Below are positions 3,058 to 20,767 of a DNA stretch of 20,767 nt, one piece after another. Every line of letters starts with the position of its first letter. Positions within the stretch are counted from its first letter, which is position 1. The notes beneath the pieces were generated by a model, which ran no database searches, was not told where the DNA came from, and saw only the letters and a list, made by a program, of their open reading frames with translations. Where the stretch lies: positions 1-20,767 of the forward strand of contig JAEOTF010000075.1 in assembly GCA_016840025.1 (NCBI GenBank). Direction: 5' to 3'. A program made the position numbers and the translations under genes. Source of the DNA: Candidatus Hodarchaeota archaeon. GTDB lineage: Archaea; Asgardarchaeota; Heimdallarchaeia; Hodarchaeales; YT1-039.

Positions 3058-4698
3058 ATGAGTCAATATGAAGTATCAAAGTCTAAGACCATTATTGGTA
3101 TTCTTTTAAGCATCATTATCATTGGTCCTGCCATTATCATCCTTAATTTTTCCTTAAACAATCATCAAACCACACAAACTACCAATCAACAAACTTCTGA
3201 TATTCTAGTGGAGTCTAGTGCTACTCCATTAAATTCTGAAGAGCCTAGACAACCCTCTGCAACTACTTTGGCTGAACAAATCAATCTATCATTAAATACA
3301 ATAACTACATGGACATCTAGCATCAGAATATGGCACAGAGGGTATGTCTTTGGGAAAGTAACTGCGTTTGATCTAGATCAGATTATATCTAACTATCAAG
3401 TGGATAATAACTGGATTAAGGTATTAGAAACAAAAAGTTATGCAGAAATGATAAATTACACCTCATCAACAATCGATAACGCCGTCAAGTGGGCATTAAA
3501 CGCTGCACCGATGTTTTCCAATTATTCATTGGTTAAGGAATATTCCAAATCTACAAGGATTGCTTTCTGTGTTTGGGATAGATGGCTTTTACATGGGTAT
3601 AGATACGCAAGGGAATTGAACTATCTAACTGCGAAATGGAATACTACATCTGCTTTTGAAGGTATGAAAGCAGTTCGTGATGCTTTCGGACGCGCTTTCT
3701 ATGATTGTAACCCCGATGCTTTATCCGCTAAGGCAATGTCATATGGAACTCGATGGATGTCCACTTCAAACCTTGCTGATTGTTTTATGATGTTTTATCA
3801 TGAAACAGGATTGGAAGAAGCTTTAGATTATGCATTACAAGAATGGGATGATCTTAATGCTTTATACTGGGACCCAGATAAAGAATACTATGTATATGCG
3901 ACTAATTGGAGAACATGGGAATGGTCCGCAATAGAAGTATGCTTTAACTATGATAAACTCCGTCAGTTGAATGGTACATTAGAAAAATGGAATAGGATAT
4001 ATATTGACCTCCAAAACAGATATTTGGCCGATAAATGGTTCTCTCCCCAATGGTCAGGTACAATTGTTGTTCATTCTCCTGGATCATCACAGCGACGTTT
4101 ATTTGCTACAGAAAATGCTTGGCATTTGTTATTAACCTATTTTGGGAATTTTTCATTATCGAATCAGACTAATATGAAAAATATGCTCGAAGGGGTAGGT
4201 GTTACTCAAGCCTGGCGAGGGCTCTTGTCGACAGGAGGAGGATGTTATGATAGTTCAACATATAGATTTAGACATGATTCAGATGAACCTATTTCAGACC
4301 ATGGAACAGCAATTGGATGTATGACACTATTTTTGCAGGGTATTTCTCCACAAAGTGGTGCAGGGCTAATAATTCCCAAAAGGTGCCAATCTTACGCCGC
4401 TACGCCTGTTCCTTTTGATGTTTTTAGATATTATCCTAGTACTCACCAAATTTTAATTCCAGTTTATGGGGGAACAACCTTAAAGTTTTTGTACGGGTCT
4501 TCGTATCCAACTTATACATTTTCTGAGGATGGCGTTTATCTTATAACATTCAGCTCAGATTGGAACTCTATTATCAGTGTAGAATTAGGGGGGCAAGTTC
4601 CAGTTCAAGAGATCCAATATATCTATCTTTTACCGTTGTTGATGGTTGTAATAGTAGTTCTATTGGTTTTATTTCTCAGAAAGAAAACACAGAATTAA
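3058..4698 (+). CDS. Membrane-anchored extracytoplasmic protein, possible (alpha/alpha) toroid enzyme, function unknown
   Basis: A 546-residue protein. An N-terminal hydrophobic segment (about 11-31) after two lysines acts as signal anchor or signal peptide. A Ser/Thr/Gln-rich linker follows (about 32-75), then a large Trp- and Tyr-rich helical domain (about 78-435), a beta-rich segment (about 440-515) and a C-terminal membrane helix (about 522-541) ending in RKKTQN. The bulk should therefore sit outside the cell. Alternating amphipathic helices with segments such as EWDDLNALYWDPDKEYYVY resemble helix-pair toroids found in glycoside hydrolases and sugar epimerases, but I do not recognise a family and name no catalytic residues. 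TENAWHLL and DEPISDHGTAIG are conserved-looking loops. ATG at 3058 follows an AGGGG Shine-Dalgarno. Its position beside glycan genes suggests, without proving, a role in carbohydrate processing or cell-surface structure. Confidence 0.75.
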   Translation: MSQYEVSKSKTIIGILLSIIIIGPAIIILNFSLNNHQTTQTTNQQTSDILVESSATPLNSEEPRQPSATTLAEQINLSLNTITTWTSSIRIWHRGYVFGKVTAFDLDQIISNYQVDNNWIKVLETKSYAEMINYTSSTIDNAVKWALNAAPMFSNYSLVKEYSKSTRIAFCVWDRWLLHGYRYARELNYLTAKWNTTSAFEGMKAVRDAFGRAFYDCNPDALSAKAMSYGTRWMSTSNLADCFMMFYHETGLEEALDYALQEWDDLNALYWDPDKEYYVYATNWRTWEWSAIEVCFNYDKLRQLNGTLEKWNRIYIDLQNRYLADKWFSPQWSGTIVVHSPGSSQRRLFATENAWHLLLTYFGNFSLSNQTNMKNMLEGVGVTQAWRGLLSTGGGCYDSSTYRFRHDSDEPISDHGTAIGCMTLFLQGISPQSGAGLIIPKRCQSYAATPVPFDVFRYYPSTHQILIPVYGGTTLKFLYGSSYPTYTFSEDGVYLITFSSDWNSIISVELGGQVPVQEIQYIYLLPLLMVVIVVLLVLFLRKKTQN

Positions 4699-6438: not shown

Positions 6439-7347
6439 ATGACTCAAAAATTAATCATCACTGGTCCTATGCGTTCTGGAACAACCTTATTAGCAAATTT
6501 CCTAAATACTCAGGATTCTTGTTTAGTTTACCGAGATTTTCTCCGTTCAGTCTTTGAAGTCTCTACAAGATTGAAAATACATCATTTTTACACCCCAATT
6601 CCCTCTCGAGCTAAAAATATTATATTAAGAAATCTGAAAGCTGAAATGCAACAATTACGCTTGAATATCCTACAAGATCTAACACCTAATGATTTTACTA
6701 CGCTGAAAGAACTTCTTGACGTGTGTCTAAAGACTCTTATTTCCCCCAAGATACAGCTAATTGGATTAAAAGTTACTGAGAATGCAGATTATTTACCAAA
6801 ATTGTTAGAAGAAACAGATTTTTCGATTATATACATGCTTCGTGATCTTCGTGATGTTCTCCTTTCTTCTGCAAATTATTTTGTAGCGTACAACATATAT
6901 GATTGCGCTAAAAAATGGAATAAAGGCTTAAAAATTGTTAAATCATTAGAAAAGAAATACGATCGGCTTTATCTCCTTAAATTTGAAGATCTACTCCTTC
7001 AGTTAGATCAAGAAGTTAGAAAATTGTCCGATTTCCTAAAAATAGAATTAAAATTGTTTGATAAAGACTTGAAAGACCTTGATACATTAGGATGGCAAGA
7101 TAATTCAGCTTTTCATGATATTAACAAGCTATTCGATTCACAAGCTGTGTATCGTTGGAAAAAAGAGCTAAACTCTCATGAAGTGAAATATGGATCAAAA
7201 ATCTACCGGAAAACCCTTAAAGAGTTGGAATATGAAGAATTACAAATTCGTTTCCGAGAATCTCTTTATTACAAGGGATATCATTTACAGAGCCGCTTTA
7301 GACAGGGAATTAAACGTATAGGAAAAGCATTCTATAATCGTCTTTAG
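6439..7347 (+). CDS. PAPS-dependent sulfotransferase-family protein
   Basis: A 302-residue protein beginning with the P-loop-like 5'-phosphosulfate-binding motif GPMRSGTT (9-16), as in carbohydrate sulfotransferases. The 3'-phosphate-binding region is seen as MLRDLRDVLLSSANYF (133-148), with Arg135/Arg138 and the Ser pair at 143-144. Family members move sulfate from 3'-phosphoadenylyl sulfate to hydroxyl or amino groups of sugars or other acceptors. There is no signal peptide or membrane segment, so it should act in the cytoplasm on a nucleotide- or lipid-linked sugar before the flippase acts. ATG at 6439 has a good AAGGAA Shine-Dalgarno about 7 bases upstream. The C-terminal part is Lys/Arg-rich and less conserved. 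Acceptor unknown; sulfation of the locus glycan is inferred from context. Confidence 0.8.
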   Translation: MTQKLIITGPMRSGTTLLANFLNTQDSCLVYRDFLRSVFEVSTRLKIHHFYTPIPSRAKNIILRNLKAEMQQLRLNILQDLTPNDFTTLKELLDVCLKTLISPKIQLIGLKVTENADYLPKLLEETDFSIIYMLRDLRDVLLSSANYFVAYNIYDCAKKWNKGLKIVKSLEKKYDRLYLLKFEDLLLQLDQEVRKLSDFLKIELKLFDKDLKDLDTLGWQDNSAFHDINKLFDSQAVYRWKKELNSHEVKYGSKIYRKTLKELEYEELQIRFRESLYYKGYHLQSRFRQGIKRIGKAFYNRL

Positions 7348-7672: not shown

Positions 7673-8719
7673 ATGTCTGAAATTGAAATTGGTCGGCGTA
7701 AAATAGGAACTGACCATAAACCATTCGTAATCGCCGAGATTGGGATTAATCATGAAGGAGATATAAATAAGGCGATACAAATGATAGATTCTGCATTTGA
7801 AGTGGGAGGTGAATGTGTAAAATTTCAAACACATGTAATTGAGGATGAAATGATACCCGCTGCAAAAAACGTGATTCCTGGAAATGCTACAGTTTCAATT
7901 TGGGAAATAATGAGTCGTTGTGCATTAACAGAAAAAGAAGAGGCAGAATTGAAGGAATATACTGAATCAAAAGGACTAATTTTTCTAAGTACTCCGTTCT
8001 CACGAGCTGCAGCGATCCGATTAGAAAAGTTAGGAGTAGAGGCTTACAAAATTGGTTCAGGAGAATGCAATAATTACCCTTTAGTTGAACATATCGCGAC
8101 ATATGGAAAACCAGTTATCCTGAGTACTGGGATGAATGATATTGCAAGTATAAGGAAATCAGTGACAATCATGCAAAAATACAATGTTAAATACGCTTTA
8201 ATGCATTGTACAAGTATCTATCCTACACCATATGATAAAATTCGCCTTGGAGCCATTCCTGAACTGCAAAAAAGCTTTCCAGAGGCAGTTATTGGACTTT
8301 CAGACCATTCGTTATCGATATATCCACTTTTAGGTGCAGTAGCGTTAGGGGCGTGTATTTTAGAACGTCATTTCACATCAGATAAACAATGGTCAGGTCC
8401 TGACATTAGTGTTTCTATGGACCCTCATGAATTAAAACAAGTTATAGAGGGTAGTTTGATAATTCATCAAGCCATTGGTGGTAAAAAAGGCATTTTAAAG
8501 GAAGAAAAACCAACAATAGATTTTGCATATGCGTGTGTTGTTTCTATTCGTGATATAAAAGCTGGTGAAGTTTTAAACAATGAGAATATATGGGTGAAGA
8601 GACCAGGTACAGGAGAAATTAAAGCCGAGAATTTTAAAGAATTATTAGGTAAAAAGGTTAAAGTAGACATTAAAAAAAATATACAACTTAAGTGGAGTCA
8701 AATTGAAGAAAAAAAATAA
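7673..8719 (+). CDS. neuB: Nonulosonic acid synthase (NeuB/LegI family)
   Basis: A 348-residue protein, the normal length for sialic/legionaminic acid synthases, which condense phosphoenolpyruvate with ManNAc or a 2,4-diamino-6-deoxy-mannose derivative. The N-terminal TIM barrel starts with IAEIGINHEGD (20-30), with KFQTH at 50-54, STPFS at 106-110, KIGSGE at 126-131 and HCTSIYP at 178-184. His212 (GLSDHS) and His233 (LERHFTSDKQWSGPD) match the metal ligands of the family. A C-terminal SAF/antifreeze-like domain (about 283-345) carries the RPGTGE signature (310-315). ATG at 7673 follows a clear GAGG Shine-Dalgarno. Its end overlaps the start of neuC by 17 bases. The SGN-type motif of pseudaminic acid synthases is absent, so Neu5Ac or legionaminic acid is the likelier product; the two cannot be separated by eye. 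Confidence 0.92.
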   Translation: MSEIEIGRRKIGTDHKPFVIAEIGINHEGDINKAIQMIDSAFEVGGECVKFQTHVIEDEMIPAAKNVIPGNATVSIWEIMSRCALTEKEEAELKEYTESKGLIFLSTPFSRAAAIRLEKLGVEAYKIGSGECNNYPLVEHIATYGKPVILSTGMNDIASIRKSVTIMQKYNVKYALMHCTSIYPTPYDKIRLGAIPELQKSFPEAVIGLSDHSLSIYPLLGAVALGACILERHFTSDKQWSGPDISVSMDPHELKQVIEGSLIIHQAIGGKKGILKEEKPTIDFAYACVVSIRDIKAGEVLNNENIWVKRPGTGEIKAENFKELLGKKVKVDIKKNIQLKWSQIEEKK

Positions 8720-9860
8720 AATCGTTTTTATCACGGGAACCCGAGCAGACTTTGGAAAACTAAAATCTCTTATGCTGGAAGTAGATGCATCCGAAAAATT
8801 CGAACTTTCAATCTTTGCTACTGGGATGCATAATCTTTCCTTATATGGATTCACTGAAATTGAAATATATAGAGCAGGGCTCTCAAAAAGTCTTACAAAA
8901 GGTATACCTAATATTTATAGCTATATTAACCAAATTCCAGGCGAATCAATGGATTTAATTTTAGCAAATACAATTAATGGATTGTCTAGGTATGTCCATG
9001 AACATAAACCAGACTTGTTAGTAGTTCATGGTGATCGAGTAGAAGCACTTGCTGGAGCTATTGTTGGGGCTCTCCGAAACATTTTAGTCGCACATATTGA
9101 AGGTGGAGAACGCTCAGGGACTATAGATGAATTGATTCGTCATGCAGTTACTAAATTATCACATATTCATTTTGTTGCAAATAACGAGGCATCCGATCGT
9201 CTAAGACAATTAGGCGAAGATCCTCAAAGCATTTACATTATTGGTTCCCCCGATATTGATATAATGTTTTCTCCTGACCTTCCTGATCTTGAAACAATAA
9301 AAAATCGTTACGACATAAGTTTTAAAGAATATTACATTGTACTTTTTCATTCTGTTACTACTGAACTTGAGAATCTTCGTGAAAACACAGAAAATCTGGT
9401 GTCAGCATTAATAGAAAGTGAATTGAACTATGTAGTAATTTATCCCAATAATGATATTGGTTGTGAGGAAATTTTTAAATCTTATAAACGATTAGAAAGC
9501 AATTCAAGATTCCGTATCTTGCCTTCAATGCGATTTGAATATTTTCTAACTTTGTTAAAGAATGCAAAATCCATCATTGGAAACTCAAGTGCAGGTATCC
9601 GGGAAGCACCCGCTTTTTCTGTTTATTCCATCAATATAGGTACAAGACAAAACCATCGTTATGAATATGAATCAATAATTAATGTAAACAACGATAAAAA
9701 TTCGATTTTAGAAGCTATTACAAAAGTGAGTGATTTACCACGCCCCCAACCTTCGACCTACTTTGGCGATGGAAAAAGTGCAAAATACTTTATAGATGCC
9801 CTGAATACAGAAACGTTGTGGCAAACGCCCAAACAAAAGGTATTTTGGGATTTGTCTTAA
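8703..9860 (+). CDS. neuC: UDP-GlcNAc 2-epimerase (hydrolysing), NeuC family
   Basis: A 385-residue GT-B-fold epimerase/hydrolase that turns a nucleotide-GlcNAc-type sugar into a free ManNAc-type sugar. Signatures are ITGTRADFGKLK (10-21), ATGMH (39-43), VVHGDRVEALAG (107-118), HIEGGERSGTIDELIRH (131-147), IIGSPDID (179-186) and GNSSAGIREAP near the C-terminal third. The start is TTG at 8703, inside the neuB reading frame, supported by GGAG five bases upstream (8694-8697) and by the need to include the N-terminal TGTRAD strand. The 17-base overlap with neuB indicates translational coupling and a shared substrate route. The loop GERSGTIDE differs from GDITEGAFDE in the second paralogue at 19906, so the two probably belong to different subfamilies and may act on different sugars. 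Confidence 0.88.
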   Translation: MKKKNKIVFITGTRADFGKLKSLMLEVDASEKFELSIFATGMHNLSLYGFTEIEIYRAGLSKSLTKGIPNIYSYINQIPGESMDLILANTINGLSRYVHEHKPDLLVVHGDRVEALAGAIVGALRNILVAHIEGGERSGTIDELIRHAVTKLSHIHFVANNEASDRLRQLGEDPQSIYIIGSPDIDIMFSPDLPDLETIKNRYDISFKEYYIVLFHSVTTELENLRENTENLVSALIESELNYVVIYPNNDIGCEEIFKSYKRLESNSRFRILPSMRFEYFLTLLKNAKSIIGNSSAGIREAPAFSVYSINIGTRQNHRYEYESIINVNNDKNSILEAITKVSDLPRPQPSTYFGDGKSAKYFIDALNTETLWQTPKQKVFWDLS

Positions 9861-9948: not shown

Positions 9949-11544
9949 TTATAAGAAACTTTTTATCTGGTCTACCACTCTTTGACTTGCTTTTCCATCA
10001 ATTTTATGTAGATTTTTTTCCAGATATTTTCCTCTATTTTTTGCTAACTCTGTATCATCATTCAACAAATTTTCAATAGTTGTCTGTAGATTTTTTTCCA
10101 CATAAACTCCTGCAGCGACTCCTTCCCTTACATATTCCACTGTGTCATGATCCCCACTTAAATTTAATATAATCACTGGTTTATTAAAAGCTATAGCTTC
10201 CATCGCGGTGGCTGACTGTTTTGTAATCATTAAATCACAGTTGTATATCTGTTCGATGGTATCTGATTTTTTTGGAGTAACTCTCACATCAATTTTATAA
10301 TTTTTTACACAATCTTTAATCCAATTTGTATATCTAGCTCCTTCCCTCGGATGTTGCTTGATAATTAAAGTACAATCATTTAGATTTTGAATAGCTCCAA
10401 AGACAGTGTTAAAATTACTCAAATTTTCAACATCGTTTATCCCATGACAAGTAGTCGTCCATAATATGATTTTATTTGTTGAACTGATATTGTAACGTTT
10501 TAAAAAACTCTTTCTGGAGTAGAATTTATTTGCATGATGGATTATATCATATTTGGGGGATCCAGTAATGAAAAGTTTTTCAGATGGGTATACACTGTAT
10601 TTATTAAGAAGATCATAATGATATTGTCCATAAACACATGTTTTATCGGCTAAAATTATCGTATCCTTATCTTCTTGCTCGTAAATGTACGCGGGGTCAG
10701 TTTGAGTGATTACTCCGTGCTGGATTGCTACGGTTGGGACTTTTTTTTGCTTACTCGCCCAAATAAGTGAACGTCCAAAATCCCCGTTTTCATCTTGCAG
10801 TAGAACTAGATCTGGTTTCTCTTTTTTAATCAATTCCTTTGCGATTTCAATATATTTTACAGCTCGTGGGAATAAAACTAGAAAATAAAGTTTAAACTGT
10901 AAGTCTATATAAGGAAAAAGATCTCTTCCTTGATAATTACATAATTCTCGAAAGACCTTATCGTTTCTAATCGTCTTATAAACTGATCTGAAGTGTTTAC
11001 CGGCATCTCTTTCTTTTTTCCAGACTTTAAAAGACCAATAACGCTCAAAAGATTTGTGAGGGATGTACCAATTAATCAACTTATCTAAATAGACCTTAAA
11101 TCCATTGGTTTGTCTATAAATGTCTAATGGATATATGCCGATTAAATCAAATTCGTTATGTAGTATTTTCAGGATCGAATCATAAAAATTATCTGATTTT
11201 TTAAGCTTTAAACTCTCTATATCTCTAGTATACTTCCATTCTCTATCTTGAGCTGTTACTAGGATTTTTCGCTTTATTTTTCCCTTTCTGGTTAGATTCT
11301 TCCCTAAAAGTGCTAGAGTTGACTTTATAAGTAGTATAGTTGCAAGATCAAAAAATAACTCAATCTTCTTGTAAAAAAAGAGAATAGAGAAAAACGAGGG
11401 TTTTACCTTAAGGTAAAAATCACCAGAATAATATCTTTCCACAAATTCATGGAATCCTTGATTCCTATACCACCAGAAAGTTAATCCTTTGTATTTTGTG
11501 AGTTCAATCAGTGTTTTTCCACAGCTTAATTTTGTATGGGTCAA
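9949..11544 (-). CDS. GT-B-like surface-glycan glycosyltransferase (candidate nonulosonate transferase)
   Basis: A 531-residue protein. The C-terminal half resembles CDP-glycerol glycerophosphotransferase/polysialyltransferase-type GT-B enzymes: LLQDENGDFGR (248-258), AIQHGV (273-278), ITGSPKYD (326-333), IIKQHPREG (394-402), TKQSATAMEAIAFNKPVIILN (441-461). A DENG acidic patch, an HP motif and a Ser/Thr pair are also hallmarks of bacterial GT38/GT52-type sialyltransferases, but HP occurs in TagF-like enzymes too. Residues 1-90 hold a region with aromatic and hydrophobic stretches (about 48-80) that may touch the membrane. The TTG start at 11544 has no near Shine-Dalgarno; an AAAGGAG lies 39 bases upstream and sits 9 bases before an in-frame ATT at 11574. 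It is the last gene of a minus-strand three-gene unit, 54 bases after the previous gene. Confidence 0.75.
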   Translation of the reverse strand: MTHTKLSCGKTLIELTKYKGLTFWWYRNQGFHEFVERYYSGDFYLKVKPSFFSILFFYKKIELFFDLATILLIKSTLALLGKNLTRKGKIKRKILVTAQDREWKYTRDIESLKLKKSDNFYDSILKILHNEFDLIGIYPLDIYRQTNGFKVYLDKLINWYIPHKSFERYWSFKVWKKERDAGKHFRSVYKTIRNDKVFRELCNYQGRDLFPYIDLQFKLYFLVLFPRAVKYIEIAKELIKKEKPDLVLLQDENGDFGRSLIWASKQKKVPTVAIQHGVITQTDPAYIYEQEDKDTIILADKTCVYGQYHYDLLNKYSVYPSEKLFITGSPKYDIIHHANKFYSRKSFLKRYNISSTNKIILWTTTCHGINDVENLSNFNTVFGAIQNLNDCTLIIKQHPREGARYTNWIKDCVKNYKIDVRVTPKKSDTIEQIYNCDLMITKQSATAMEAIAFNKPVIILNLSGDHDTVEYVREGVAAGVYVEKNLQTTIENLLNDDTELAKNRGKYLEKNLHKIDGKASQRVVDQIKSFL

Positions 11545-11598
11545 TTTATGGCCTAATGGTGTAGTAGTAGAAATCTTTCTTCACTCCTTTAGTGATAT

Positions 11599-12837
11599 CT
11601 AAACCTCTGAAACATTTCCAAGCTGTACTTTTGACTGGTGAGTTAAAATTAATTCCTTTATTTTCTCTGCTGCTCTTTTTCCACTTTTACCATCAGTTGA
11701 ATAAAACATTTTTTTGAAATATTTTTCCCTTTCATCTATAAATGAGTTCCAATACTCATCTGATAATGCAAGATCGATAGCTGCTCCAATTTCTTTTGAC
11801 TCAAAAACTTTAATGCCAATTTCATCTCGAAAGAAATCAATTAGTCCGAGTTCTTTGTTGGGATTAAGAAGGATAATTGGTGTACCTGTAGCAATTGCAT
11901 AAAAAGCTGTTGCTGAGGTCACTGAGATTTGTACATCACAAATCTTTAATAATTCAGTTAAATCAGAATCTTTCACGAATTTAATGTTACTAAGTCCATT
12001 ATTTTCTATAATATTCTTATATTTCTCAATAGATTCCCGAGGATGGACCTTAATATAAAAATTAAAATCAGAGTGTGATTTAATTGCTTCGATATACATT
12101 TCATAGATCTCTTCTAGCTTAACTTTCGATTTAACTTCAGTTAATCTTTCTTCTATGGGTTGCGTACAAATTAGTATGTTTTTCTTAATTCTCCTAATTG
12201 GTGAAAATTCAGAAAGCTGTTTATCAAAAGCTGGATTACCAATTGTGAATATATTTCCTCTAGAAGGATCAAATATAAATTCATCACTCCACAGAAATAA
12301 ATAAGTCTTTGGACTTTCTTCTCCAAATCGTAGTTGTCTTGAATATCTAGGAATTCTCATTAACTTATTCACAAGAAAATATTTCATTCTATATCTCAAG
12401 TTAATGTCTCTAAAGTTCACAGGTACTCCATGGATAATCGATGGTTGTAAAATTATAAAGGGAATATTATTCTTTTTACACCAAGAAGTAATAAGCCGAT
12501 CACTTAAAGCTCTATCAGAACAACTAACAATTGCTTTAGGTTTGATTTTGTTACAGTAATTCTTAATTTCTTTTTCATAACCTTTAATAAATTGATATTT
12601 TTTCCACAGTCCTTCAACATGTGAAGAAGAAACTCCTAATTCATGATAACTATGAAATCCATCTACTTTTTTTGCTTCATTTATATAAAATACCTTATTT
12701 TGGGGAGTGACGCTAGGATCTTTAGTATCCAAAAGGATGTTATTGTAACCATCCAAGAAAGGAGTTATTGGCAAGTATTGAGGAATTGATAGATAACTAG
12801 AAGTGTTTAGGAAAATAATAGAAGGATTTTCTTGCAT
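11599..12837 (-). CDS. GT-B-like glycosyltransferase, surface carbohydrate family
   Basis: A 412-residue protein, related in layout to the downstream 531-residue one but shorter at the N-terminus. Visible landmarks are VSCSDRALSDRL (104-114 region), ILQPSIIHGV (129-138), FTIGNPAFD (197-205), YIKVHPRES (261-269) and ISVTSATAFYAIATGTPIILLN (304-325). The KVHPRE and S-x-T-S-A-T elements parallel KQHPRE and KQSAT of its neighbour, so both probably use a similar activated donor. No signal peptide or membrane helix is seen, so it should be cytoplasmic or peripheral. ATG at 12837 has an AGAGGAAT Shine-Dalgarno about 8 bases upstream. It lies 31 bases after the oxidoreductase gene, in the same unit. 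Transfer of the CMP-nonulosonate made by the locus is a reasonable inference; a glycerol- or ribitol-phosphate transferase is an alternative. Confidence 0.72.
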   Translation of the reverse strand: MQENPSIIFLNTSSYLSIPQYLPITPFLDGYNNILLDTKDPSVTPQNKVFYINEAKKVDGFHSYHELGVSSSHVEGLWKKYQFIKGYEKEIKNYCNKIKPKAIVSCSDRALSDRLITSWCKKNNIPFIILQPSIIHGVPVNFRDINLRYRMKYFLVNKLMRIPRYSRQLRFGEESPKTYLFLWSDEFIFDPSRGNIFTIGNPAFDKQLSEFSPIRRIKKNILICTQPIEERLTEVKSKVKLEEIYEMYIEAIKSHSDFNFYIKVHPRESIEKYKNIIENNGLSNIKFVKDSDLTELLKICDVQISVTSATAFYAIATGTPIILLNPNKELGLIDFFRDEIGIKVFESKEIGAAIDLALSDEYWNSFIDEREKYFKKMFYSTDGKSGKRAAEKIKELILTHQSKVQLGNVSEV

Positions 12838-14003: not shown

Positions 14004-14528
14004 ATGGGAAATACAATCCATGATATTAAGGATGAAATCTATCATAAGAAAAGAGAAGAATCATTAACTGCTCAGTCTTTTCTAATAGCATTAAAAGAAA
14101 ATCTCGATCCTGATATCGCTTTTAAGATTGCTGTGGCTGCATTCACTAATTATATGACAAGTATCTATGAAAATGTGTTAAATTCAACTGAAAGAGGATC
14201 TCAAGAACGTTTTAATCGGTTTAGAGAGTTTTACGAAGAATATGCGACGAAAACCCCATATCTTGAAATAATAAAATCCACTTTAACGACTTTGAAGGTA
14301 AAATACACACGTTGTCCCTTCTTTGAGGTTTCAAAGGATCTAGGACTAGATGATTTAGCTTATGCGTTCTGTTTATCAGATTCCGCATTTACTAAGAATG
14401 TTCTCCCTAGTGTGCAGTTCAGTCGGAAGCATGTGATTGCGAAAGGAGATCCTTATTGTGATCATGTTTGGGAATTTTCAAGGGAAAATAACAATTCGCT
14501 TTTAGATACAAAAGAAGATAGTGATTGA
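14004..14528 (+). CDS. L-2-amino-thiazoline-4-carboxylate hydrolase-like protein
   Basis: A 174-residue soluble protein. The C-terminal half carries the pattern of the ATC-hydrolase-like family: YTRCPFFEV (101-109), FCLSDSAF (122-129), and F-S-R-K-H-V-I-A-K-G (139-148) followed by YCDHVWEF (151-158). Cys104, Cys123 and Cys152 are the conserved-type cysteines. The first half is helical and Glu/Lys-rich. The best studied family member hydrolyses a thiazoline to S-carbamoyl-cysteine, but most relatives in archaea and bacteria have unknown roles, so the reaction here is not assigned. ATG at 14004 follows a strong AGAGGAAA Shine-Dalgarno. The stop lies 11 bases from the convergent amidotransferase stop. 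A link to nonulosonate chemistry is only suggested by position. Confidence 0.6.
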   Translation: MGNTIHDIKDEIYHKKREESLTAQSFLIALKENLDPDIAFKIAVAAFTNYMTSIYENVLNSTERGSQERFNRFREFYEEYATKTPYLEIIKSTLTTLKVKYTRCPFFEVSKDLGLDDLAYAFCLSDSAFTKNVLPSVQFSRKHVIAKGDPYCDHVWEFSRENNNSLLDTKEDSD

Positions 14529-14539
14529 AATTAGGCAAT

Positions 14540-15658
14540 CTAATGACAAGGTTCTTTAAGTCTATATATGCCATTTATTTTTTCTACAATCTCTTTATTG
14601 GCAAATTTATCTACGAGCTTCCAAAAATCTTCTTCTGTATAATCAATAAACCCTAGGAAATCATCTAACATTTTCTGATCTAATTTCCATTCTTCTTCAT
14701 TAACAAGTTTTACAGCCTCTTCTCTGGTCATTTTTCCCTCTCGAATATCCAAGCTCGTATAATCAGTAAGTACCCAATGACCGAATTTTACGAATTTGAA
14801 CCATGTATGAACAAGATATCCAATAGTATCCACTTGTAACCAATGATATAAATTCGTAATACCCTCTCTCTCCCATTCACCAGTGTCAGCAAGTCCCTTG
14901 AAACCATTTTTCACTGCATATGTGTAATTTTCATGATCGCTCCAAGGTAAATAATAACTTAAGAATATAGCCTCAATATTTGCTTTTTTAATTTCTTCCA
15001 TGTTTGGATAGACGCCAGGATTTAGATCTTTCATCGTTAAACCTTCAACAAGCCATTCGTCCCAAGGAATAGGTTTAACAACATCGTTTTCAAGCTGAAC
15101 TAAGGCATCTGGGGTATCTTCAGTTATGGGTCCACCTCGTTCATAACTTGTGTTTTCTCCCCAAATTATTAAAGGAATTCCTAATTTGATTCCAATTTGC
15201 AAAGGATACGCATAAACCGCCTTATCCCAATACCAATTCGGAAATAGTCCTTTTTCAAGTCCTGTTTTAGTCATAATTTTTGCTGCTTTTCTGTTCAGGG
15301 ACATAAGGTGAATATCTACCCCATATCTATCAGATATGTTGAAGTAGTTCTGTCTACCTGTTTCTGACCAACTAAAATTGTCAATAGAGACCAGAAGAGG
15401 ATTCATACCTAATTTTTCTTTAAAAATATGGACTTTGTAGTGGCTGTCCTTACCACTACTTGATGCAATAATGCAATCGTAATAATCACCATTTCGTCCC
15501 CGATGTCGATTAGCTAATTCTTCTAATTCTTCCCATCTCTTTTTCCAGTCTTTTTCTTTTCTACTTTCATATGCTCTGCAAGGATAACATACACCCTCGT
15601 CGTCAAACTTGATGTATGGTCTAGTATCGGGCATTACACACTTTTTACAGTATTTCAT
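14540..15658 (-). CDS. N-acetyl sugar amidotransferase (WbuX/PseA/PtmG-like)
   Basis: A protein of 372 residues from ATG at 15658; a GTG nine bases upstream (15667) is an alternative, but the family normally begins at MKYCKKCVMPDTRP. Two CxxC pairs (Cys4/7 and Cys24/27) form a probable zinc site. The PP-loop ATPase motif ASSSGKDS (65-72) follows, then NWYWDK and GENTSYERGGP. The family uses ATP and ammonia to change an N-acetyl group of a sugar into an acetamidino group; relatives modify pseudaminic and legionaminic acids and O-antigen sugars. Many partners are HisH/HisF-like proteins that supply ammonia; none is in this window. The promoter candidate is TATAAA on the minus strand at 15718-15723, giving a leader of 30-35 bases. 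It lies divergent from the ptmE operon, which supports action on the same sugar. Confidence 0.85.
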   Translation of the reverse strand: MKYCKKCVMPDTRPYIKFDDEGVCYPCRAYESRKEKDWKKRWEELEELANRHRGRNGDYYDCIIASSSGKDSHYKVHIFKEKLGMNPLLVSIDNFSWSETGRQNYFNISDRYGVDIHLMSLNRKAAKIMTKTGLEKGLFPNWYWDKAVYAYPLQIGIKLGIPLIIWGENTSYERGGPITEDTPDALVQLENDVVKPIPWDEWLVEGLTMKDLNPGVYPNMEEIKKANIEAIFLSYYLPWSDHENYTYAVKNGFKGLADTGEWEREGITNLYHWLQVDTIGYLVHTWFKFVKFGHWVLTDYTSLDIREGKMTREEAVKLVNEEEWKLDQKMLDDFLGFIDYTEEDFWKLVDKFANKEIVEKINGIYRLKEPCH

Positions 15659-15717
15659 ATCTGTCACAGCTTCTATTTCAGTCGTTAAATGATTGGATTA
15701 CCTCAATTTTTTATTAG

Positions 15718-15905: not shown

Positions 15906-16955
15906 ATGGAAAATTGGAAAGATGTTCTAGTTTCAAATGATATTACTATTCGACAGATTTTGTCAATTATTGATGAATACTCTCTAACAGTTGCCCTAGT
16001 CGTGGACAAACAAGAGAAATTGTTAGGCGTTATAACAGATGGAGATATTCGTCGTGGTCTTATCAACGGGGTTGATTTAGGAGAACCCGTATCTAAGATT
16101 ATGAGTAAAAATCCTCTCGTTGTATCCCCTGAAACCCCTAAACAAGAAATCCTTAATATAATGAATGAAAAATGGATACGACAAATTCCTATTGTTGATG
16201 AGTCTGGGATTGTAACCGGATTAGCCTTACTTGACTTACTTGTTCAACCAGAAAAGCAAGACAATTGGGTTGTGTTTATGGCGGGAGGATTAGGCACAAG
16301 ACTACGTCCATTAACAAAAGATGTGCCTAAACCGCTTTTAAAAATTGGAGAGAAACCTATAATTCATATATTGCTAGATGAGATGAAAAAACAAGGTTTT
16401 GAGAATTTTTATATTTCCATTAATTACAAAGCTGAGATGATAGAGGATTATTTAGGTAATGGATCCGAATGGGGAGTTAAAATTAAATATTTACAAGAGA
16501 AAGAAAAATTAGGAACTGCAGGTGCGCTTAGTTTATTCTCCGAACGCCCGAGTGATTCTTTTTTCATAATAAATGGAGACATTCTCACTAAAGTTAACCT
16601 TGAAAAAATGCTTCACTTTCATAACACGTATAAAGGTGTTGGTACCATGGGTGTACGTGAATATGAATTTCAAGTGCCATATGGTGTTGTAAATTCCGAT
16701 GGACGTCTTTTAACAGGGTTAATTGAAAAACCTAACCAATATTTCTATGTTAATGCTGGAGTTTATTTATTAGATCCAATATGCTTAGATTTTGTCCCTA
16801 ACCAAACTTATTTTGATATGACTGATCTCTTTAAATCTCTACTAGATGCAAATAAAAGGATGCTAACTTACCCTATTCGTGAATACTGGATTGATATCGG
16901 ACATCTTAGTGATTATGAGAAGGCAGTTCGGGATTATGGAGCGAATTTCTTTTGA
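15906..16955 (+). CDS. ptmE: CBS-domain sugar-1-phosphate nucleotidyltransferase (PtmE-like)
   Basis: A 349-residue fusion. Residues about 1-115 are a CBS pair (GVITDGDIRRGL at 41-52; KIMSKNP at 64-70; RQIPIVDESG at 92-101). Residues 120-349 are a nucleotidyltransferase with FMAGGLGTRLRPLT (124-137), the catalytic-type Lys in KPLLKIG (142-148), NGD (223-225) and a late WIDIGHLSDYEKA. CBS plus NTP-transferase is the layout of Campylobacter PtmE, which makes GDP-GlcN in legionaminic acid synthesis. The CBS pair may sense adenine nucleotides. Whether GDP or UDP is used here cannot be read directly. ATG at 15906 has GGAG at 15890-15893. First gene of the operon; its stop overlaps the next start by 4 bases (TTGA). 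Confidence 0.85.
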   Translation: MENWKDVLVSNDITIRQILSIIDEYSLTVALVVDKQEKLLGVITDGDIRRGLINGVDLGEPVSKIMSKNPLVVSPETPKQEILNIMNEKWIRQIPIVDESGIVTGLALLDLLVQPEKQDNWVVFMAGGLGTRLRPLTKDVPKPLLKIGEKPIIHILLDEMKKQGFENFYISINYKAEMIEDYLGNGSEWGVKIKYLQEKEKLGTAGALSLFSERPSDSFFIINGDILTKVNLEKMLHFHNTYKGVGTMGVREYEFQVPYGVVNSDGRLLTGLIEKPNQYFYVNAGVYLLDPICLDFVPNQTYFDMTDLFKSLLDANKRMLTYPIREYWIDIGHLSDYEKAVRDYGANFF

Positions 16956-17665
16956 TTGAAAATTATTCTGTTTTAGCATTGATTCCTGCACGAGGGGGAT
17001 CCAAAGGAATACCAAGGAAAAATATCCGTAATTTGGGTGGAAAACCACTTATTGCGTGGACCATTGAGGAAGCTAAAAAATCACGTTATATTGATCGTTT
17101 AATTCTTTCTTCCGAAAGTAAAGAGATAATTGAATTAGCAAAAAAACTTGGCTGTGAGGTACCCTTTACTCGCCCTGCTGAATTCGCCCAGGACGACACC
17201 CCAGGAGTAGAACCTGTTTTACACGCTATTGGAATGTTACCATCTTATGATTATGTAGTATTGCTTCAACCAACTTCACCTCTTCGAACAATTGAAGATA
17301 TTGATGGATGTATTGAATATTGCATCCAAAATGAAGCAAATGTAGCTGTTACAGTCTCTGAACCAAATAAAAGTCCATATTGGATGTATACATTAGATGA
17401 AAAACAACATTTAATCCCTCTTATAAAAGAATCTAGTCATTATACAAGGCGTCAGGACATACCCAAAGTTTATACTACAAATGGCGCTGTATATGTTGCC
17501 AAAACTTCTTGGCTTAGAAAAAAAAGAGTTTTTATATCTAAAGAAACAGTAGGATATCTAATGCCTACGAATAGATCTATGGATTTAGATACAATGTTTG
17601 ATTTTGAGCTCCTAGACAGTTTCTTAAGAAATAAAGGTAAAAAATTTCATTCTAAAAGAATTTAG
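16952..17665 (+). CDS. legF: CMP-nonulosonic acid synthetase (NeuA/LegF family)
   Basis: A 237-residue cytidylyltransferase, near the usual length. It shows the CTP-binding signature LIPARGGSKGIPRKNI (10-25), LSSES (52-56), VLLQPTSPLRT (103-113), TTNGAVY, and the late MDLDTMFDFELLD that carries metal-binding acidic residues. It activates a nonulosonic acid as the CMP-sugar, the donor for the transferases. The start is TTG at 16952, overlapping the ptmE stop by four bases, with GGAG at 16938-16941, so translation is likely coupled. No ATG fits, because the IPARGG strand starts ten residues in. The exact acid (legionaminic, sialic) cannot be settled from the motifs; the operon context favours legionaminic-type. 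Confidence 0.88.
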   Translation: MIENYSVLALIPARGGSKGIPRKNIRNLGGKPLIAWTIEEAKKSRYIDRLILSSESKEIIELAKKLGCEVPFTRPAEFAQDDTPGVEPVLHAIGMLPSYDYVVLLQPTSPLRTIEDIDGCIEYCIQNEANVAVTVSEPNKSPYWMYTLDEKQHLIPLIKESSHYTRRQDIPKVYTTNGAVYVAKTSWLRKKRVFISKETVGYLMPTNRSMDLDTMFDFELLDSFLRNKGKKFHSKRI

Positions 17666-17690
17666 GTTTAAAGAACCCTGTGTGATTGAT

Positions 17691-18707
17691 ATGAAAACAT
17701 TAAATTCTGAAAAACACATTCTAGTCGTTGGTGGGGCTGGTTATATAGGTTCTACTCTTGTTAGAAAACTGCTCGCTAATAAATATAAAGTTAGAGTACT
17801 AGATAATCTTCTTTATAATAATAATTCATCAATTGTTGGTTTTCTAGATGACCCACATTTTTCCTTTATTTATGGCGACTTTTGCGATGAAAAATTTCTT
17901 AAAACTGCTCTTAATGGCGTCACGGATGTAATTCATTTAGCTGCTCTAGTAGGAGATCCCATATGTAAAAAATATCCAGATAAGGCAGTAAGAGTCAATA
18001 AAGATGGCTCTGTCAACCTGTTTAACTATCTTATGGACTATGACATAAATCATTTTGTTTTTCTATCAACCTGTAGTAATTATGGTTTACGGGAAGATGA
18101 TAGCTTAGCGACTGAAGAATCAACTTTAAATCCAAAATCACTCTATGCAGAAACTAAAGTTGCTACAGAAAGATTTATCATTGAAAATACACGATCTGTC
18201 GATTTTCATCCTACAATTCTTCGTTTATCAACTGCTTATGGCATATCTAATAGGATGAGATTTGACCTAACAATTTCCGAATTTACTCGAGAGTTAGCTT
18301 TGGGAAGAGAGCTATTAGTTTATGATGAAACCACTTGGCGTCCTTATTGTCATGTTGATGATATTTCTCAAGCTATAGTGACTGTTGTGAACTCTCATCC
18401 TGAGAAAATTTCTGGTGAAGTATTTAATGTAGGGAGTAATAATGGCAATTTTACGAAAAAAATGATTGTTGATATGATTCAAGATTATATACCCAATAGT
18501 CAAATCCAATACAAGAAAGGTGGGATGGATCCCCGAAATTATAGAGTCTCTTTTGATAAAATTCATAACCAATTAGGGTTTAAAAGTGCCATAACGGCAG
18601 AGATTGCTATTAAGAATCTGATAATTGCTATAAAAAACGGTTTCTTTACTGATTATGATAAAAATCGGAATTTTTATGGAAATTACCAGATCAAATTTAC
18701 TGATTAA
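17691..18707 (+). CDS. NAD-dependent epimerase/dehydratase (extended SDR), possible LegB role
   Basis: A protein of 338 residues from ATG 17691; GTG at 17682 is an alternative that adds three residues, and neither has a strong Shine-Dalgarno. The Rossmann loop is GGAGYIGS (14-21), with a D at the end of strand two. HLAALVGDP lies around 82-90, the SDR Tyr-Lys pair is YAETK (152-156), and FNVGSN comes late. The threonine-region motif is STCSNYG (126-132), not the ST-D-E-VYG of RmlB-type 4,6-dehydratases. WRPYCHVDDIS is also a clear signature. In the operon it stands where LegB (nucleotide-sugar 4,6-dehydratase) would be expected, but the active-site motif also fits an epimerase or reductase, so the reaction is left open. 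Sixteen bases or so separate it from legF and 35 from legC. Confidence 0.8.
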   Translation: MKTLNSEKHILVVGGAGYIGSTLVRKLLANKYKVRVLDNLLYNNNSSIVGFLDDPHFSFIYGDFCDEKFLKTALNGVTDVIHLAALVGDPICKKYPDKAVRVNKDGSVNLFNYLMDYDINHFVFLSTCSNYGLREDDSLATEESTLNPKSLYAETKVATERFIIENTRSVDFHPTILRLSTAYGISNRMRFDLTISEFTRELALGRELLVYDETTWRPYCHVDDISQAIVTVVNSHPEKISGEVFNVGSNNGNFTKKMIVDMIQDYIPNSQIQYKKGGMDPRNYRVSFDKIHNQLGFKSAITAEIAIKNLIIAIKNGFFTDYDKNRNFYGNYQIKFTD

Positions 18708-18742
18708 GACCATGAGTACTGTAATGAAGGAGAAGCTTAGTC

Positions 18743-19909
18743 TTGAATCCAGTGAATCATGACAAAGTCATTAAAACTATCCAAGAAGTATTAAAACCGG
18801 AAAATAAAGTTCTAGCACTTCATGAACCTTATTTTGTTGGAAATGAATGGACTTATGTAAAAGACTGTCTTGATACCGCTTGGGTTTCTTATGCAGGTAA
18901 ATATGTAGATGAATTTGAAAACAAGCTTGCTGACTTTACTGGAATGAAACATGCTATTGTTGTAGTTAATGGCACTGTAGCAATCTTTATCTGTCTTAAA
19001 CTAATAGATACACAACCAAACGAAGAAGTTCTCGTACCAGATATTACTTTTGTAGCTACCGCTAACGCTGTAGCTCATGCTGGTGCTATTCCACACTTTG
19101 TTGACATAGAAGAGCGTACTCTAGGAATAAATCCTTTTAAACTAGAGGAGTATCTAACAGAAATCGCAGAAGTGCGCGATGATGGCTGCTATAACAAAGC
19201 CACTAAACGGAGAATAAAAGCCGTTATTCCCGTTCATATCTTTGGACATCCAGTGGATATTGATCCTCTGCTTAGATTATGCGATGAATATAAGTTAGAA
19301 CTCATTGAAGACGCAGCAGAATCAATAGGGTCATATTACAAAGGTGTACATACTGGAAAGTGGGGGAAAGTTTCAGCTTTAAGTTTTAATGGAAATAAGA
19401 CAATAACTACTGGTGGTGGAGGAGCAATAATAACAGATAACGATGAATTAGCCCATTTAGCCAAACATTTGACAACAACAGCTAAAGTCCCCCATAAATG
19501 GGCGTATTTTCATGATATGGTTGGCTATAATTTCCGACTGCCGAACATCAATGCTGCAGTAGGATGTGCACAGATGGAGCAGTTACCTACTTATCTTTCA
19601 CGAAAACGTGCATTAGCGGAGCGATATATAGAAGCTTTTGAAGATTTTCCTGGACTTTACTTCTTTCAAGAACCCTCTTTCGCTAAAAGCAATTATTGGT
19701 TAAATGCCATAGTATTAAATCAAGAAAATAAAAACCAGCGTGAAAGACTCTTAGAGGCTTTGCATAATAGAAAGCTATTAGCTCGTCCTTTATGGACTCC
19801 TATGCATGAACTTCCGATGTACCAAAACAACCCAAAAATGGAAAATTTAGATACAGCTAAGAGTTTAGCGGCACGATTAATCAACATTCCAAGTAGTGTA
19901 TTTCTATGA
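18743..19909 (+). CDS. legC: LegC-family PLP-dependent sugar aminotransferase (DegT/DnrJ/EryC1/StrS)
   Basis: A 388-residue type I aminotransferase that puts an amino group on C4 of a 4-keto-6-deoxy nucleotide sugar. Landmarks are NGTVAIFICLKL (76-87), VPDITFVATANAV (98-110), PVHIFGHPVDI (163-173), EDAAESIGSYYKG (189-201), and SFNGNKTITTGGGGAI (214-229), where Lys219 is the PLP Schiff-base lysine. GYNFRLPNINAAVG (261-274) is the conserved subunit-contact loop. Length and the FNGNK-x-x-TTGGGG phrase fit the LegC subfamily, as in legionaminic acid loci. The start is TTG at 18743, with AAGGAG at 18727-18732 ten bases upstream, the best Shine-Dalgarno in the operon. Its stop overlaps the next ATG by four bases (ATGA). 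Confidence 0.9.
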   Translation: MNPVNHDKVIKTIQEVLKPENKVLALHEPYFVGNEWTYVKDCLDTAWVSYAGKYVDEFENKLADFTGMKHAIVVVNGTVAIFICLKLIDTQPNEEVLVPDITFVATANAVAHAGAIPHFVDIEERTLGINPFKLEEYLTEIAEVRDDGCYNKATKRRIKAVIPVHIFGHPVDIDPLLRLCDEYKLELIEDAAESIGSYYKGVHTGKWGKVSALSFNGNKTITTGGGGAIITDNDELAHLAKHLTTTAKVPHKWAYFHDMVGYNFRLPNINAAVGCAQMEQLPTYLSRKRALAERYIEAFEDFPGLYFFQEPSFAKSNYWLNAIVLNQENKNQRERLLEALHNRKLLARPLWTPMHELPMYQNNPKMENLDTAKSLAARLINIPSSVFL

Positions 19910-20767
19910 CCACGCCAAGGAAAATCTGTGTTGTTACCGGCTCTCGTGCGGAATATGGTTTATTAAAACCTGTTATAGAAAAAATTCTGAAAGAAATCAG
20001 CTTTCATTTACAAATAATTGCAACAGGCATGCACCTTTCACCTGAATTTGGTCTAACTTATGAAATAATCGAGAAAGATGGATTTAAAATCGATGAAAAA
20101 GTTGAGATGCTTCTTTCTAGCGATTCTGCAGTAGGTGTTACCAAATCTATTGGAACAGCAACTATAGGATTTGCGGACGCTTTAGACCGATTAAAACCTG
20201 ATCTGCTTATTATTTTGGGTGATCGATTTGAAATATTAGCTGTAGCACAGGCAGCTTTAATTGCTAGAATACCAATCGCCCATATCGCTGGTGGAGATAT
20301 TACGGAAGGAGCATTTGATGAGGCTATCCGTCATTGTATAACAAAGATGTCTCATCTGCATTTTGTGACCAACGAACAATCTGCAAACCGTGTAAGGCAA
20401 CTCGGAGAAAATCCTGATCATATATTTAACACAGGCAGCCCAGGACTTGATCAAATCTTAAATACTCGACTAATGTCCAAAGAAGATTTAGAGTCTCAGT
20501 TAGAATTTCAATTTAAGTCCAAAAATTTATTGGTGACATTTCATCCTGTAACTTTAGACGTTAAATCATCTTCAGAGCAATTTCAAGAGTTACTTAATGC
20601 ATTGGAATCATTAGGATCAGAAATAGGCATAATTTTTACAAAACCTAACGCAGATCCAGAAGGTCGTGTCTTGATTCAAATGATTGACCTATTTACTGAT
20701 ACACATCCTAATGCTAAAGCCTATACGTCACTTGGCGCATTACGTTACTTTAGCACTATTAATCAAG
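19906..20767 (+). CDS. legG: Hydrolysing nucleotide-sugar 2-epimerase, LegG/NeuC family (3' partial)
   Basis: The frame runs off the window end after 287 codons; about 90-100 more residues are expected. Starting at ATG 19906 inside the legC stop (ATGA), it reads MTTPRKICVVTGSRAEYGLLK, then IIATGMHLSPEFG (37-49), IILGDRFEILA (near 104-114), HIAGGDITEGAFDEAIRH (near 125-142), TGSPGLDQI, TFHPVT and TKPNADPEG. These are hallmarks of NeuC/LegG epimerases, which invert C2 and release the nucleotide, giving the hexose substrate of the synthase. The 4-base overlap with legC fits LegC then LegG acting in sequence. It is the second such enzyme in the window; the GGDITEGAFDE loop is the commoner NeuC/LegG form. 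A synthase gene could follow just outside the window. Confidence 0.88.
   Translation, partial: MTTPRKICVVTGSRAEYGLLKPVIEKILKEISFHLQIIATGMHLSPEFGLTYEIIEKDGFKIDEKVEMLLSSDSAVGVTKSIGTATIGFADALDRLKPDLLIILGDRFEILAVAQAALIARIPIAHIAGGDITEGAFDEAIRHCITKMSHLHFVTNEQSANRVRQLGENPDHIFNTGSPGLDQILNTRLMSKEDLESQLEFQFKSKNLLVTFHPVTLDVKSSSEQFQELLNALESLGSEIGIIFTKPNADPEGRVLIQMIDLFTDTHPNAKAYTSLGALRYFSTINQ

Follow-up and report, generated by a model that had tools for sequence, protein, structure and literature searches.

A short-chain dehydrogenase of the Cj1427 clade may stand in for LegB in a nonulosonic acid operon of an Asgard archaeon

Contig JAEOTF010000075.1 of a Candidatus Hodarchaeota archaeon (the window, i.e., the whole stretch of 20,767 nucleotides analysed here) carries a surface-glycan locus with a GC content of 33%. 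At its end lies a run of five plus-strand genes (15906-20767) that is almost certainly a nonulosonic acid (NulO) operon of the bacterial LegC/PtmE type, visible in part. In the visible stretch of this operon the 4,6-dehydratase LegB may be replaced by an extended short-chain dehydrogenase/reductase (SDR) of the Cj1427 clade, a reading to which we give a probability of roughly 0.43. The genes of the run are the following:

15906..16955, plus strand: PtmE-like protein, 349 amino acids, with two CBS domains (PF00571) and a sugar-1-phosphate nucleotidyltransferase domain (PF00483)
16952..17665, plus strand: CMP-NulO synthetase of the NeuA/LegF type (PF02348), 237 amino acids, TTG start codon
17682..18707, plus strand: extended SDR of the Cj1427 clade, 341 amino acids, with a STCSNYG motif, between NeuA and LegC
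18743..19909, plus strand: pyridoxal phosphate-dependent aminotransferase of the LegC family (TIGR04181, 520 bits, cut-off 420)
19906..20767, plus strand: NeuC_b, a hydrolysing UDP-N-acetylglucosamine 2-epimerase of the LegG/NeuC type (TIGR03568, 371 bits although cut short, cut-off 236)

From 5' to 3', the junctions between these genes are a 4-nucleotide overlap, a 16-nucleotide gap, a 35-nucleotide gap and a second 4-nucleotide overlap. Coordinates, packing and family scans all agree with the first-pass annotation, which had described five packed genes of these families. The assignment to a NulO operon is well supported because LegC and NeuC_b cluster with enzymes from bacterial loci of the legionaminic type, and a grouping of either with non-nonulosonate enzymes was not seen. 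In the trees, to which proteins of more than 220 (LegC, PtmE) or 200 (NeuA, NeuC) amino acids were admitted, LegC is sister to that of locus L021 (support 87/82) inside a group of LegCs from LegB-containing clusters (96/92), NeuC_b is sister to the NeuC of L016 (97/97) and groups with NeuCs of LegB-containing clusters, and the PtmE-like protein lies with members of such clusters (90/92, under the star threshold). NeuA is sister to that of L020, again from a LegB-containing cluster (98/98), and the enclosing group (98/96) includes the NeuAs of both bacterial genomes, G019 and G1229, in which the SDR accompanies LegC. Among proteins of solved structure, the best relative of NeuC_b is a GDP/UDP-N,N'-diacetylbacillosamine 2-epimerase (257 bits) and that of NeuA a CMP-N-acetylneuraminate synthetase (134 bits); on the PseF model NeuA reaches 163 bits and misses the cut-off of 206. 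The PtmE-like protein is 45-47% identical to nucleotidyltransferases of the bacterial clusters L020, L016 and L003, and its NCBIfam matches are a mixture of UTP-, GTP- and dTTP-using enzymes, all under their cut-offs. Its CBS fusion had been taken to point to a GDP-sugar route, but such CBS-nucleotidyltransferases are ordinary in bacterial clusters and are no proof of GTP use. Nor is the description of the operon as complete supported, given that the window end cuts off the 3' part of NeuC_b, that no acetyltransferase family (as expected for LegH) was found by Pfam scan among 17 window proteins (open reading frames of 82 and 85 amino acids lay outside the scan), and that the SDR is not LegB.

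The identification of the SDR as LegB is rejected by its score on the LegB model (96 bits against a cut-off of 475), by its STCSNYG motif and by its position in the tree. There it is joined to Cj1427, apart from LegB and GalE, with a support of 100/99, in a tree where, according to a warning of the tool, long branches meet; its identity to Cj1427 is 35%. The STCSNYG motif occurs in all 120 SDR-family sequences, the window member counted, and STSEVYG in all 13 distinct LegBs inspected, i.e., those in the retrieved loci, a set outside which the LegBs of G077, G952, G960 and G1110 lie. A review table lists 4,6-dehydratases with an acid/base pair or a glutamate in this motif and the 4-epimerase GalE with none. 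The pair is absent from the SDR family, which has TCS at this place in 120/120 sequences. For Cj1427 itself, the accessible text of the report describes C4 oxidation without dehydration and the use of 2-oxoglutarate (PMC10680097). No LegB was recognised in the visible window. The earlier view that the run follows the bacterial legionaminic acid logic is thus borne out for the NulO operon and for the kinship of LegC and NeuC_b with legionaminic-type clusters, and fails at the SDR, which is not the 4,6-dehydratase LegB. The gene order, which had been regarded as distinct, rearranges the bacterial set, and the unusual part is the SDR.

Evidence that such an SDR can occupy the place of LegB comes from bacterial genomes. 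A LegC over its cut-off was found in 11/247 and 4/301 genomes of two phylum samples. Of these 15 LegC genomes, 12 have LegB (E<=1e-80), seven of them with a score over its own cut-off; in eight of the 12 it is located directly upstream of LegC. The genomes without LegB at this threshold are G001 (with LegC on a contig of 4.9 kb), G019 and G1229, and it is in the last two that the SDR was detected at E<=1e-70 (46% and 41-42% identical to the window protein, respectively). In both clusters the related SDR fills the slot of LegB: the run of G019 reads NeuA-NeuB-NeuC-PtmE-SDR-LegC, with GNAT and PIG-L genes in between, and that of G1229 reads NeuA-NeuB-NeuC-WbuZ-HisH-WbuX-acetyltransferase-PtmE-SDR-methyltransferase-LegC. 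Fisher's test for mutual exclusion of SDR and LegB in the 15 genomes gives a p of 0.029. In many genomes the phylum searches for SDR and LegC scored no more than the first 5-8 candidates, which makes these counts lower bounds. Moreover, LegC and PtmE of G019 and G1229 fall into a single clade with their counterparts from L025 and L026, two loci of LegB-containing genomes, and among the loci of one LegC/PtmE clade (L014, L025, L026 and L040) LegB and SDR alternate. Because the same slot is filled by LegB in L026 (PtmE-LegB-LegC) and by the SDR in L014 (PtmE-SDR-LegC), the two genes look, from their arrangement, as if they had been exchanged in place within this clade. On a Cupriavidus plasmid, PtmE-SDR is followed by LegC in two pieces. 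More broadly, a DegT aminotransferase is encoded within approximately 1 kb of the SDR in 10 of 24 SDR loci (window excluded), among them five of six haloarchaeal plasmid copies of the SDR, where it lies just upstream; the haloarchaeal aminotransferase that was scanned (L028) scores 258 bits on the LegC model, under the cut-off, and is not LegC proper. GNAT and PIG-L deacetylase genes (L014, 5131-7951) and a further PIG-L gene (L042, 12000-12680) are also found near the SDR, whose route may thus include a de-N-acetylation.

The 299 genomes searched from the G002 phylum gave no SDR match at E<=1e-70, and searches of the order and the class of the two SDR genomes (4 and 110 genomes, respectively) yielded no further case. 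Among 398 genomes from the G003 phylum at least 10 matches were found, with a DegT aminotransferase nearby only in G934 and no LegC over 180 bits in the loci of those 10. A LegC search of genome contigs returned six loci, all bacterial to judge by their titles. Viral contigs gave no match to the single SDR or to LegC, and three loci of 30-39% identity when searched with an SDR alignment. The IMG/VR contig L045 encodes a relative of the SDR of 39% identity (8001-8945).

If the SDR replaces LegB, the pathway that we infer would start with the synthesis of an NDP-hexosamine by PtmE. The SDR would then oxidise C4 of this nucleotide sugar with bound NAD+ and keep the 6-hydroxyl, because it lacks the acid/base residues of 4,6-dehydratases. 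LegC would aminate C4 with glutamate as donor, and the 2-oxoglutarate thereby formed could re-oxidise the NADH of the SDR, as 2-oxoglutarate does for Cj1427. Following N-acylation, the hydrolysing 2-epimerase would release a 2,4-diamino-mannose, to which a NeuB-type synthase would add phosphoenolpyruvate before NeuA forms the CMP sugar. The predicted product is a 7-amino-7-deoxy sialic acid (7-N, 9-OH) instead of the 9-deoxy legionaminic acid. A wider proposal, which we consider rather unlikely, is that archaea and bacteria share a second diamino-nonulosonate pathway, with a LegC-paired ping-pong C4-dehydrogenase (Cj1427 clade) in place of the 4,6-dehydratase and with Neu5Ac7NAc-type sugars, which keep the 9-hydroxyl, as its products, and that the Asgard archaeon may make such a sugar alongside true N-acetylneuraminic acid (Neu5Ac). 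In the accessible parts of two papers, a sugar of this type figures solely as a chemoenzymatically made compound.

Several observations weigh against a replacement of LegB. The contig stops inside NeuC_b, leaving the genes beyond its end out of view. The window LegC, NeuC_b and PtmE have their nearest relatives in LegB-containing clusters and not in G019 and G1229, a kinship suggesting that these enzymes may be tuned to a 6-deoxy substrate, and that either the SDR and LegC of the window were paired independently or LegB lies off the contig. Fourteen of the 24 SDR loci, some of them short, contain no detected DegT aminotransferase. G1110 has both LegB and an SDR-family member (with the motif STCSVYG) 3 kb from its LegC, and once it is counted the exclusion test rises to about 0.08 (hand calculation) on few genomes; in G952 the SDR and a LegB-like gene occur with no LegC at E<=1e-115. 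LegB can also lie away from LegC, on a separate contig in G960 and after NeuC in L005, and in L003 and L004 a LegC over cut-off occurs with neither LegB nor SDR recognised in the locus, the part covered here. Genes of the PF02719 dehydratase family exist elsewhere in G019 (two) and G1229 (one, on the same contig as the run). In addition, in both members scanned of a Pseudomonadota clade the SDR adjoins a protein with PF01973 and TPR domains; in L031 (9363-12926) and L036 (6912-10454), from genomes of the phylum of G003, the protein of this kind directly beside the SDR-family gene has about 835 amino acids. The Maf transferases, which attach NulOs to flagellin, belong to PF01973 (formerly DUF115), and the neighbour may be Maf-like, which we regard as a lead only.

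The first alternative is an ordinary bacterial-type legionaminic acid operon taken up by the archaeon, in which LegB or another 4,6-dehydratase, LegH and LegI are encoded off the contig or elsewhere and the SDR is accessory, e.g., an oxidoreductase modifying NulOs or glycans in the position of PtmA. We consider this plausible, at somewhat less than even odds. It is consistent with the LegB-context kinship of three window enzymes, with the G1110 and L003/L004 cases, with PtmA-type SDRs that follow NeuA in L016, L017, L018 and L022, and with the location of LegB, which is adjacent upstream of LegC in 11 of 16 LegC loci with LegB in the locus or genome and elsewhere in five (L005, L020, L025, L053 and L054). 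However, the window SDR is 341 amino acids long against 274 for the PtmA-type protein of L016 (a comparison of length, not of tree position) and immediately precedes LegC, the commonest position of LegB. Furthermore, the whole assemblies of G019 and G1229 lack LegB at E<=1e-80, and the window NeuA groups with the NeuAs of SDR clusters too. A second alternative, which seems improbable, is that the SDR epimerises an NDP-hexosamine at C4 in the manner of GalE, so that the operon leads to a precursor epimeric at C4 or to a glycan sugar of galacto configuration, with another dehydratase feeding LegC; the SDR resembles GalE in lacking the acid/base pair and is placed apart from it in the tree.

The remaining alternative concerns NulO-related genes outside the run, which the first-pass annotation had not included:

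7673..8719, plus strand: NeuB of the Neu5Ac-synthase type (TIGR03569, 369 bits, cut-off of 400 not reached)
8703..9860, plus strand: NeuC_a, a second hydrolysing UDP-N-acetylglucosamine 2-epimerase (TIGR03568, 400 bits, cut-off 236)
14540..15667, minus strand: N-acetyl sugar amidotransferase of the WbuX family (TIGR03573, 317 bits, cut-off 203), divergent from the operon

NeuB is 56.4% identical (194/344 residues) to the Neisseria Neu5Ac synthase (1xuu), with near-identical active-site motifs, including the shared IPGNAxVSI and AYKIGSGECNNYP, and only 29-38% identical to NeuBs of the bacterial clusters; its reading frame overlaps that of NeuC_a by 17 nucleotides. NeuC_a is 29-35% identical to the cluster NeuCs. 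From sequence, true sialic acid synthesis by NeuB and NeuC_a in an Asgard archaeon is therefore possible. That the whole locus serves Neu5Ac, with NeuB and NeuC_a synthesising it, NeuA activating it and the LegC/SDR part leading to an unrelated 4-amino sugar, would suit a window whose sole synthase is of the Neu5Ac type, but is very unlikely considering that NeuA, SDR, LegC and NeuC_b form one tight run and that NeuC_b groups with members of legionaminic-type clusters and, to judge by its nearest solved relative, would be expected in NulO synthesis. A study of the NeuB active site, in its accessible part, relates positions 70-85 to the portion of the sugar from C4 to C6, the substrates for legionaminic and pseudaminic acid being without a C6 hydroxyl. 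Based on this study and its Neisseria-like sequence, the window NeuB fits the kind that accepts a 6-hydroxy sugar, which would suit either Neu5Ac or the 9-hydroxy product of the SDR route without deciding between them. G019 and G1229 have synthases of another type. In an active-site comparison that set aside L017_NeuBx (302 amino acids) and a 140-amino-acid fragment of L021, both NeuBs of SDR clusters have a valine in the strand of the HC motif and 11 of 11 others an asparagine or threonine, numbers too few for use.

Among the known systems closest to the archaeal locus are bacterial legionaminic acid clusters, e.g., the one on a plasmid of Rhizobium sp. WL3 (L016). The L016 cluster likewise encodes LegC, NeuC, a CBS-nucleotidyltransferase, NeuA and a WbuX amidotransferase (a family also present in the NulO clusters L017, L024, L040, L052 and L053), and its LegC, NeuC and PtmE are close in sequence to those of the window. 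It differs in that LegB directly precedes LegC and that its run includes an acetyltransferase gene and NeuB, all missing from the visible archaeal run, which has the Cj1427-type SDR instead of LegB. LegC, LegG and a CMP synthetase are also common to the CMP-legionaminic acid pathway of Campylobacter jejuni, of which LegB, LegH, PtmF and a legionaminic-type LegI are not recognised in the window. That pathway is said, in Schoenhofen's 2009 work, to run on GDP-linked precursors, and its PtmE is presumably a CBS-fused nucleotidyltransferase like that of the window. Cj1427 itself acts as a GDP-D-glycero-D-manno-heptose C4-dehydrogenase on a heptose substrate in a capsule pathway (PMC10680097), whereas the window SDR lies in a NulO operon. 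In the sps pathway of Bacillus subtilis, as far as its accessible description goes, another enzyme also stands in LegB's stead; SpsM, however, is a PglF-like UDP-N-acetylglucosamine 4,6-dehydratase and the product is still legionaminic acid, a precedent that weighs against the SDR route here (PMC7439481). In an spsM deletion strain of that study, legionaminic acid was restored by PglF and by Pen-Pal, and by LegB only in part. Among archaea, Halorubrum sp. PV6 has NulO genes in a surface-glycan locus with LegC, LegG and LegF, but with a predicted LegB numbered beside LegC, plus LegH and LegI, and with no PtmE named in the main text (PMC6137143).

The rest of the window is consistent with a glycan locus in an archaeon. 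A sulfotransferase-family gene (6439-7347) adjoins a flippase gene and NeuB, so the glycan may be sulfated, and two minus-strand genes (9949-12837) separate the two NulO parts, one matching PF04464 and PF02350 (49 bits each) and the other no Pfam family. An ATC_hydrolase-domain protein (PF14196) is encoded at 14004-14528. Three of the 17 proteins scanned have no family match. No RNA families or tRNAs were detected in the window, and promoter and terminator scans with bacterial models gave no more matches than in shuffled sequence. The product of 3058-4698 (546 amino acids, no Pfam match, a hydrophobic stretch at the C-terminus) has 21 non-self homologues in a large protein set, and all seven that are named are archaeal (three Hodarchaeota and one each of Heimdallarchaeota, Kariarchaeaceae, Bathyarchaeota and 'archaeon'). 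Judged from this one protein, the archaeal host proposed earlier is supported and looks Asgard, near Hodarchaeota. The operon may come from bacteria, since those of the 120 best LegC relatives shown that are assigned to a named organism are bacterial; yet the GC profile is even along the window (0.30-0.36).

The archaeal setting by itself, highlighted in the first-pass annotation on the grounds that archaeal NulOs are known in few lineages, is not new because, in the parts of the literature available, legionaminic acid is known in Halorubrum PV6 and its pathway is predicted in Ca. Methanoperedens. A search of the available literature found no paper linking Asgard archaea to nonulosonic acids, or Heimdallarchaea to sialic acid. 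Of the new elements, the pair formed by the SDR and LegC lends itself best to testing. Should the SDR replace LegB, genome surveys labelling such clusters as legionaminic acid clusters would name an incorrect sugar, and there would be a natural route to a sialic acid variant met, in the accessible literature, only as a laboratory-made compound. Asgard archaea are the group nearest to eukaryotes and, even on the plainer reading of an ordinary operon, an Asgard NulO locus with a Neu5Ac-type synthase bears on sialic-acid-like surface sugars near the origin of eukaryotes.

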